From Flavobacteriaceae bacterium (GTDB lineage Bacteria; Bacteroidota; Bacteroidia; Flavobacteriales; Flavobacteriaceae): a stretch of DNA of 64,000 nt. The notes below the pieces were generated by a model that was not told the origin of the DNA, ran no database searches, and saw nothing but the letters and a program-made list of their open reading frames with translations. Each line of letters begins with the position of its first letter. Position 1 is the first letter of the stretch. Both the position numbers and the translations under genes were made by a program. The stretch spans positions 39,763-103,762 of the forward strand of contig CANLLR010000005.1 of NCBI GenBank assembly GCA_947491985.1, in the 5' to 3' direction. This document shows positions 48,101 through 51,416 of this stretch, in pieces.

Positions 48101-48585
48101 CCATTGTTGTAAACCACTATTCTACTATATGGTTCTGTATTTATTGTAATAGTTACAGATGAACCTTGACAAACAGATTGATTGGCAGTTGCAAAATTAG
48201 TATTCAATCTAGTTTCAATAAGCAATGGAAAACTTGTTGTAGTATAGTTAGTTGGATTTGCAATTTCCGAAACTCTGCAAAAAATAGTTGGACCGCTTAC
48301 ACTGGAAAAAAGATTAAAAAAAGCAATACTGTTTGTATTAGAATCTGCATCTAATTGTGAATAAAAAAAGGCAACTTCATAATCTTACAGATTCAAACTT
48401 CCTAAAATTTCAGGAATTTTACTGCCTAATGGAAAAACAGCAATTCCATCAAAATTGTCATCACATCCAATTAATACTGTTGGAGTGTTAATTGGTGGCT
48501 GTGCATAGGCAATACCAGCAAATAGTAATAATAAAAACAGTAACTTTTTCAAAACAATTTTTTTTATGTTTATTATTGTTTTCAT
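45166..48585 (-). pseudogene. Leucine-rich-repeat T9SS surface protein, broken by an in-frame stop
   Basis: The track gives two ORFs, 48385-48585 (66 codons, signal peptide LFLLLLFAGIAYAQ and start of the mature region) and 45166-48225. Both lie in one frame, and the frame between them is open, reading DYEVAFFYSQLDADSNTNSI and on, from a single TAA at 48385-48387. Joined, the protein is about 1138 residues: an N-terminal LGSLN-DYEV type domain, Ig-like regions, about 15 leucine-rich repeats (LDCSYNSLTNLNVAGCSQLQSL pattern, residues about 330-620 of the joined protein), DUF11-like regions and a T9SS sorting domain. A TCA or TTA to TAA change would explain the stop. Residual expression from an internal start would lack the signal peptide. 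Surface adhesion is the likely original role. Confidence 0.85.
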
Positions 48586-48632: not shown

Positions 48633-49262
48633 TTATAATGCTTTTATCAATTCTTGTAATTTTTTCCTATTACTTTATGCGATTGGAATGTTCGTATTAT
48701 CAGCCATAATCACACAACCTCCATCACTTTTAATGTACGATTTCAAAAACGATAGATTAATCAAATGCGATTGGTGTATGCGTTCACATCCGTGTTCGGT
48801 TAATAATTCTTCATACTCTTTTAAGGTTTTTGAGAGCAATAATGGTTTGTGATTTTTGATAAAAAACTCGATGTAATTTCCTTTTGCATCACAGCGAATG
48901 ATGTACGAAACTTCAAACGGCAATCGCATTACTTTAGAAAATTTAGACAAATATTTTAAAGCAGAATCGGTGCCGTTTTGAACGATAAAACTCGAAATCG
49001 ATCCCAAACAATCGAAAACAAAATGTGGATTCATTTGCAAATGCAGGGCTTTTTGTTCGTATTCGGCGCCTTCTTTTTGCAAGGTCAAACGGCCTTTGAC
49101 TTTATCGGCTATTACATTGTAAAGTGGTACTTTAGACGTATCAATTTTAGTCACTTTTAACACTCGTTTTAAACTATCAATTGCTGCTTGTTGTCCGAAA
49201 CAATTCAAGCAAAAAAGAACGAGACTAGTACTAACTAATATGTTGAGTTTGTTTTTTATCAT
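48633..49262 (-). pseudogene. Collapsed LytS-type kinase / LytTR regulator relic
   Basis: The track ORF (48675-49262, 195 codons) is a mosaic: a signal peptide and the first repeat of a TPR sensor (SLKRVLKVTKIDTSKVPLYNVIADK), then a LytS-type kinase core (QKALHLQMNPHFVFDCLGSISSFIVQ), then without any receiver domain a LytTR DNA-binding domain (IIRCDAKGNYIEFFIKN, SKTLKEYEELLTEHG, RIHQSHLINLSF). The normal TPR block, membrane helix, ATP-binding domain and receiver are missing, so two internal deletions in frame are inferred. After the TAA at 48675-48677 the frame runs on with SNRKKLQELIKAL to a second TAA at 48633, the normal LytTR end. Function as a sensor or regulator is unlikely. Confidence 0.75.
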
Positions 49263-49453: not shown

Positions 49454-49939
49454 ATGAGTAACGCTTACAAAGTAACTGTAAATCATGGAAATCCCATTGA
49501 TGCTGCAGAAAGTGATCTTAAAAATCTAGATGCAATTCCTATAGGAACTTCTAAATTTCATGTGCTGAAAAATAACAAATCTTTCCAAGCCGAAATCATT
49601 TCTTCCGATTTTATCGCTAAAAAGTACTCGGTTAAAGTCAACAACACCACTTATGAAGTAGCCATATCCGATGCTTTGGATATTTTAATTCAAAGTATGG
49701 GAATTGAACGCGGTCGTACCAAAGTAATCAATGCCATTAAAGCTCCAATGCCTGGTTTGATACTTGAAATTAGTGTTTCAATCGGTCAAGAAGTGAAAGA
49801 AAATGATCCGCTATTAATTCTCGAAGCCATGAAAATGGAAAATAGTTTCCTGTCTCCTCGCGATGGTGTGATCAAGTCGATTGCAGTTGAAAAAGGCAAC
49901 GCCGTCGATAAAGGACAATTGTTAATCGAATTTGAATAA
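49454..49939 (+). CDS. Biotin carboxyl carrier protein of an acyl-CoA carboxylase
   Basis: 161 residues. The C-terminal 75 residues are a biotinyl domain with the attachment motif EAMKMEN (lysine biotinylated) and the preceding PMPGLILEISVSIGQEVKENDPLLI. The N-terminal half is the strand-rich region common to carriers of acetyl- or propionyl-CoA carboxylases of Bacteroidota. It is first in an operon with the biotin carboxylase (16 bases downstream) and the carboxyltransferase. Together they give a three-subunit carboxylase. Confidence 0.93.
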   Translation: MSNAYKVTVNHGNPIDAAESDLKNLDAIPIGTSKFHVLKNNKSFQAEIISSDFIAKKYSVKVNNTTYEVAISDALDILIQSMGIERGRTKVINAIKAPMPGLILEISVSIGQEVKENDPLLILEAMKMENSFLSPRDGVIKSIAVEKGNAVDKGQLLIEFE

Positions 49940-49940
49940 A

Positions 49941-49961
49941 CCTGAAACCTGAAACGTGAAA
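49941..49961 (+). repeat. Heptad repeat containing the biotin carboxylase start codon
   Basis: CCTGAAA, CCTGAAA, CGTGAAA in exact phase. The GTG start codon of the carboxylase gene is in the third copy (49956-49958). Confidence 0.8.
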
Positions 49962-51416
49962 CAAATTAAAAAGATACTAGTTGCCAACCGCGGTGAAATT
50001 GCCATTCGTGTCATGAAAACCGCCAAAAAAATGGGCATCAAAACAGTTGCAGTGTATTCTGCTGCCGACCGGAATGCTTTGCATGTAAAATATGCCGATG
50101 AAGCCGTTTGCATTGGTGAAGCAGCCTCGAGTCAGTCGTACTTGCTTGGCGATAAAATAATCGAAGTGTGTTTGTCACTTGGCGTGGATGCTGTGCATCC
50201 TGGTTACGGGTTTTTGAGTGAAAATGCCGCTTTTGCAGAAGCCTGCGAAAAAAACAACATTATTTTTATCGGACCAAAATCGAAAGCCATCGAAATGATG
50301 GGAAGTAAATTAGCCGCTAAAGAGGCTGTGAAAGCGTACAATATTCCGATGGTTCCCGGAACCGAAGAAGCAATTACCGATATTGAAGAGGCTAAAAAAA
50401 TCGCTACTACTATTGGTTTTCCCATCTTAATCAAAGCCTCTGCAGGTGGCGGTGGAAAAGGAATGCGTGTGGTAGAAAAAGAAGCCGATTTTGTATCGCA
50501 AATGAATCGTGCCATCAGTGAAGCGGTTTCTGCTTTTGGAGATGGTTCGGTATTTATCGAAAAATACGTCACCAAACCGCGTCACATCGAAATACAAATT
50601 ATGGCCGACAGTCATGGCAATGTACTGTATGTTTTTGAAAGAGAATGCAGCATCCAACGACGTCACCAAAAAGTAGTCGAAGAAGCACCATCGTGTATTT
50701 TAACTCCAGAAAAGCGAAAAGAAATGGGTGAAGCTGCCGTAAAAGTAGCGCGAGCCTGCGACTATTTGGGAGCCGGAACCGTCGAATTTTTAATGGACGA
50801 CCAACTTAATTTTTACTTTCTCGAAATGAATACGCGTTTGCAAGTGGAGCATCCTGTTTCTGAAATGATTTCAGGGTTGGATTTGGTCGAATTGCAAATT
50901 CGTGTCGCTCGTGGCGAAGCTTTACCGATGCAACAAGACGATTTGAAAATTACAGGTCATGCTATGGAACTCCGTGTGTATGCTGAAGATACGTTGAATG
51001 ATTTTTTGCCGAATGTCGGATTTTTAAGTACCTATAAATTGCCAGAAGGCGACGGAATTCGTGTCGACAACGGCATCGAGCAAGGAATGGACGTACCCAT
51101 TTATTACGATCCGATGTTATCCAAATTGGTGACGTATGGCAAAACACGTGAAGAAGCCATCGAACTTATGATTAAAGCCATCGCTGACTATCATATCGAA
51201 GGTGTGGCCACCACATTGCCTTTTGGGAAATTTGTGATGGAACATGAAGCCTTTCGTTCGGGCGATTTTGACACCGGTTTTGTAAAAGCCTTTTACGATG
51301 CTGATAAATTAAAGTCGGCGCTTGAAACCGAAGCTGACATTGCCGCTTTAATAGCATTGCGTCAGTATGTTGAGGATAAGAAGATAGTTCGATTACCGAA
51401 TTTAGAAAATAGATAA
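49956..51416 (+). CDS. Biotin carboxylase subunit of acyl-CoA carboxylase
   Basis: 486 residues with an ATP-grasp fold. KILVANRGEIAIRVMKTAKKMGI (N-terminal), VHPGYGFLSENAAFAEAC, KASAGGGGKGMRVV (ATP loop), RHIEIQIMADSHGNVLYVFERECSIQRRHQKVVEEAPS and FLEMNTRLQVEHPVSEMISGLDLVE are the full motif set. It carboxylates biotin on the carrier. The start is GTG 49956, inside a heptad repeat, and the last three codons (EN R) are also made by a heptad array (GAAAATA GATAATA). In the operon with BCCP and the carboxyltransferase; probably propionyl- or acetyl-CoA specific, to be settled by the beta subunit. Confidence 0.95.
   Translation: MKQIKKILVANRGEIAIRVMKTAKKMGIKTVAVYSAADRNALHVKYADEAVCIGEAASSQSYLLGDKIIEVCLSLGVDAVHPGYGFLSENAAFAEACEKNNIIFIGPKSKAIEMMGSKLAAKEAVKAYNIPMVPGTEEAITDIEEAKKIATTIGFPILIKASAGGGGKGMRVVEKEADFVSQMNRAISEAVSAFGDGSVFIEKYVTKPRHIEIQIMADSHGNVLYVFERECSIQRRHQKVVEEAPSCILTPEKRKEMGEAAVKVARACDYLGAGTVEFLMDDQLNFYFLEMNTRLQVEHPVSEMISGLDLVELQIRVARGEALPMQQDDLKITGHAMELRVYAEDTLNDFLPNVGFLSTYKLPEGDGIRVDNGIEQGMDVPIYYDPMLSKLVTYGKTREEAIELMIKAIADYHIEGVATTLPFGKFVMEHEAFRSGDFDTGFVKAFYDADKLKSALETEADIAALIALRQYVEDKKIVRLPNLENR

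Follow-up and report, generated by a model that had tools for sequence, protein, structure and literature searches.

A reading frame of 195 codons in the window (the whole stretch of 64,000 nucleotides that was analysed) is very probably a young pseudogene of a LytS-LytTR sensor/regulator pair, made by internal deletions, and it does not represent a novel type of regulator. The marks of a pseudogene are its deletions and stop codons, the synteny with an intact pair in a relative, the relaxed constraint found on the branch of the remnant only and the lack of such a fused gene in the relatives scanned. The decaying relic proposed in the first-pass annotation is thus supported by the intact syntenic pair, two mapped deletions and a nonsense codon, as well as by the last two lines of evidence. 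The genome is a draft of 2.65 Mb in 82 contigs with 93.8% completeness, and its nearest named relatives belong to Flavobacterium.

The features of the locus are listed in Table 1. A Pfam search placed a His_kinase match at residues 69-116 of the frame (model positions 2-49 of 81, E 3e-10) and a truncated LytTR domain (PF04397) at residues 117-194 (model positions 7-85 of 98, E 1e-7), both above the curated cut-offs, and the N-terminal part of about 54 residues aligned with the start of the intact F. aquatile kinase, comprising its signal peptide and first segment. The union of LytS and LytTR parts in one frame, described earlier from the sequence, was confirmed in this way, but the kinase core attributed to it is not a full one, since only part of the His_kinase model is covered. 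Likewise, the extracytoplasmic piece does contain the signal peptide and leader, but not the first TPR-like segment that had been assigned to it, as no TPR is recognisable in the piece that was kept. The membrane, ATPase and receiver parts are indeed missing: no match to HATPase_c or Response_reg was obtained with Pfam in the remnant, both domains being present in F. aquatile, and the hydrophobic transmembrane segment of the F. aquatile kinase is absent, with only the signal peptide left. The H-box reads QMNPHFVFD, compared with QMNPHFxFN, so that the conserved histidine is kept and the invariant final asparagine is changed to aspartate.

Table 1. Features of the remnant locus, with positions in the window.
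Feature	Position	Strand	Basis
Remnant reading frame of 195 aa uniting LytS leader, H-box piece and LytTR domain	48675..49262	-	ORF list, Pfam, alignment
Segment 1, aa 1-54: LytS-type kinase signal peptide and N-terminal leader	49101..49262	-	Alignment to F. aquatile (L038)
Segment 2, aa 55-114: His_kinase piece with the H-box and its His	48921..49100	-	Pfam, conserved-residue comparison
Segment 3, aa 116-195: LytTR DNA-binding domain	48678..48917	-	Pfam, conserved-residue comparison
Deletion junction 1, K54/V55: loss of ~1101-1110 bp present in relatives (TPR array and only TM helix)	49098..49103 (join ~49100/49101)	-	Alignment to relatives
Deletion junction 2, P115-E117: ~953-1040 bp of relatives missing (kinase remainder, HATPase_c, spacer, receiver)	48912..48920	-	Alignment to relatives
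Premature TAA, CAA in intact F. aquatile	48675..48677	-	Alignment to F. aquatile
LytTR tail still readable (SNRKKLQELIKAL) and native stop	48633..48674	-	Alignment to F. aquatile
accB-type biotin carrier gene, intact, divergent from remnant	49454..49939	+	ORF list, synteny with F. aquatile
accC-type gene, anchoring synteny to F. aquatile with the accB-type gene	49956-51416		Synteny
Downstream gene: signal peptide, LRR, DUF7619, T9SS Por_Secre_tail; otherwise open, ~1139 codons	45166..48585	-	ORF list, domain search
Single in-frame TAA, codon 67 of downstream gene	48385..48387	-	ORF list, reading frame

An intact counterpart is present in F. aquatile LMG 4008 (L038, also L066), in which a kinase of about 640 aa (TPR-TM-His_kinase-HATPase_c) and a regulator of 253 aa (Response_reg-LytTR) are encoded by separate genes, followed by the gene of a long secreted LRR protein. 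This pair is divergent from accB/accC in an arrangement identical to that of the window, and the non-coding DNA upstream of it also aligns with the window, which indicates that it is the same locus as the remnant and not a paralogue. The leader, the H-box segment and the locus of the remnant are orthologous to those of this LytS/YehU-type kinase (PF06580 plus HATPase_c with TPR input, in Flavobacterium), whereas the TPRs, the TM helix, the second half of His_kinase and HATPase_c have been deleted. Its LytTR domain is orthologous to that of the LytTR response regulator (PF00072 plus PF04397), with 86% identity to F. aquatile over residues 116-195, but it has no receiver, its last 14 residues are cut off by a stop and it is fused behind a signal peptide.

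Counterparts were scanned for in 60 genomes of relatives, 400 genomes of the genus and GTDB contigs. In the readable relatives kinase (mostly 640-716 aa) and regulator (about 253 aa) are separate intact genes, and in the 400 congeners the match to the H-box part and the match to the LytTR part lie at different places, with about 1 kb between them. Conservation of the same short gene in many species, which the first-pass annotation named as refuting its proposal, was searched for and not found, the fused architecture being absent among the approximately 400 sampled congeners and the best 80 of 548 GTDB loci. No close sister genome for dating was found, the best accB/accC match among the 400 congeners being only 79% identical. 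A search by family and by place found no second copy of the kinase/regulator pair in this genome, and the one further His_kinase gene that it has (C19) belongs to another type. F. aquatile has a second, eno-linked lytS/lytTR/LRR copy (L039); the interval after eno in the present genome (L157 2534-2782, G000:C3) contains no lytS/lytTR/LRR genes. A citrate-synthase-like gene is located directly after eno in this genome.

Mapping against the intact F. aquatile locus bore out the earlier proposal of at least two in-frame deletions in a kinase/regulator pair. At junction 1 the leader (LADKFKETNPDS in F. aquatile) is joined to residues adjacent to the inner face of the membrane (in relatives, NRRQVKRRLTLQKE-like), and at junction 2 the kinase sequence SKFSKLMRLTLE is joined to the regulator sequence LFEVSDIIRCEAKGNY. 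Both deletions keep the frame, an outcome with a chance of about 1 in 9 if unselected. The short direct repeats that had been suggested for the deletion points were absent beyond 2-6 bp as judged from relatives, junction 1 showing about 2 bp and junction 2 an imperfect 6 bp, TT[G/T]GAA. The remnant resembles bacterial pseudogenes formed by short-homology (illegitimate) deletion and nonsense mutation: homology at its two internal deletions is imperfect and spans 2-6 bp at most, and it has a nonsense codon, relaxed constraint and intact syntenic orthologs. It differs from them by its surviving frame, which leaves a readable chimera.

Past the premature TAA the frame continues as SNRKKLQELIKAL and then a stop, compared with QSKKEKLQELIKAL and a stop in F. 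aquatile. That this tail is still readable and ends at the native position 48633 indicates that the TAA is recent. Position 48633 is the exact end of the native LytTR frame, which agrees with the stop just before the normal LytTR end reported in the first-pass annotation.

Selection on the remnant branch was analysed by fitting a codon model to the 136 codons that were retained, with 12 relatives included. Omega was 0.069 on this branch versus 0.026 in the background (2ΔlnL 5.1, nominal p ~0.024), a difference of modest significance with dS saturated (~1.7 on the remnant branch), and nine other tips under the same test gave 2ΔlnL values of 2.0 or lower. An omega of 1 on the remnant branch was rejected (dlnL ~17); the whole-branch value far below 1 is expected if the decay is recent, and a shortened, still useful gene would look alike. 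In a two-phase model, the neutral phase at the end of the branch amounted to 0.075 substitutions per codon (profile ~0.01-0.16), versus about 1.7 substitutions per codon on the whole branch under the two-omega model. Of 80 near-invariant positions defined from 78 relatives, 8 were changed in the remnant, including N to D after the H-box, D to Y, F to C and Y to C, compared with a mean of 0.5 in the relatives, among which more than two changes were found only in two distant Chryseobacterium sequences (10 in L118 and 4 in L136). These substitutions suggest a picture in which the pair was held by selection until recently and then released.

Of 74 related loci, 69 have a gene for a DUF7619 protein directly downstream of lytTR, whereas such a protein is encoded by 16 of the 621 other frames there; among the five exceptions, four run into a contig end and the fifth is a short broken frame. 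A conserved three-gene unit is observed in Flavobacterium and relatives, formed by a TPR-LytS kinase, a LytTR regulator and a T9SS-exported LRR-DUF7619 protein. DUF7619 is among the domains predicted to form intramolecular isopeptide bonds (PMC12617251). In a literature search no paper was found on the LytTR-DUF7619 neighbourhood, nor anything relevant on pseudogenes and two-component systems in Flavobacterium. Adjacency suggests that the pair may regulate the LRR gene, and in the window, where this gene carries an in-frame stop (Table 1), the whole sensor-regulator-surface-protein unit seems to be decaying. In a related locus (L083) the lytS/lytTR pair is intact and the LRR gene that follows it, from 5313, gives only a 180-aa frame, so that the output gene may be interrupted independently elsewhere. 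Four other DUF7619 proteins are encoded elsewhere in this genome (L160, L161, L163, L164), in which no intact such pair remains.

As to the order of events, we infer that an ancestral TPR-TM LytS-type histidine kinase and receiver-LytTR regulator, encoded upstream of a T9SS-exported LRR-DUF7619 surface protein, were hit by two illegitimate deletions, each removing about 1 kb between sites that share little or no homology, and by a nonsense mutation close to the C-terminus of LytTR. Each deletion happens to be in frame, so that the reading frame survived. If a product were made, it would be unable to transfer phosphate, having neither ATPase nor receiver, and it would be exported by the kept signal peptide away from DNA, since with the membrane helix lost the LytTR domain would end up outside the cytoplasm. 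Whatever control the pair had over the downstream surface protein would consequently be lost as well.

The frame that stays open through both joins and the low whole-branch omega count against a pseudogene. The open frame is also an argument for a domesticated mini-regulator, a small DNA-binding LytTR protein that phosphorylation no longer controls and that perhaps has an internal start which keeps it cytoplasmic. The high identity of the LytTR part to F. aquatile, with a score above the Pfam cut-off, and the low whole-branch omega would fit such a protein, but its LytTR C-terminus is cut by a stop beyond which the old sequence is still recognisable, near-invariant LytTR positions are changed, no relative among those scanned (the 400 congeners and the best 80 GTDB loci) has such a gene and the adjoining likely target gene is interrupted too. 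This explanation is very improbable. A minimal DNA-binding protein, the less favoured reading of the first-pass annotation, is disfavoured because the signal peptide is kept and the transmembrane anchor lost; judged from the sequence, a DNA-binding fragment would be cytoplasmic only through an internal start and would be devoid of its last 14 residues, an equally improbable outcome. That the chimera is expressed and serves either as an internally started mini-LytTR regulator independent of phosphorylation or in some new role as an exported protein is slightly less credible still.

It is unlikely, if less so than the preceding alternatives, that the pseudogene arose in a single complex rearrangement or by recombining with another lytS/lytTR locus instead of through two separate deletions. 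The two junctions are close together, and the H-box piece is 85% identical over 158 bp to the eno-linked copy of F. aquatile versus 82% over 203 bp to the accB-linked one; however, the order of the segments is that of the syntenic pair, the accB-linked copy is the best match of the LytTR segment and of the leader together with the DNA upstream of it, and no second copy is left in this genome. Given the many contigs and incomplete state of the draft, a contig that joins non-adjacent pieces, the organism having an intact pair, was also considered, but misassembly does not usually produce two clean in-frame joins without repeats together with relaxed substitutions and two nonsense codons within one sensor-regulator-surface-protein unit, and the missing kinase piece was not found elsewhere in the assembly, which contains only the different His_kinase gene mentioned above. 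An assembly artefact is accordingly among the least probable of the explanations considered.

As a young pseudogene, the remnant represents ordinary gene decay, and its recognition mainly guards against its annotation as a LytTR-domain protein or as a new one-component regulator. The unit to which it belonged is of possible interest, as the TPR-LytS/LytTR pair of Flavobacterium nearly always precedes an LRR-DUF7619 surface protein exported by T9SS, and this species has interruptions in all three members of the unit, sensor, regulator and surface protein alike.
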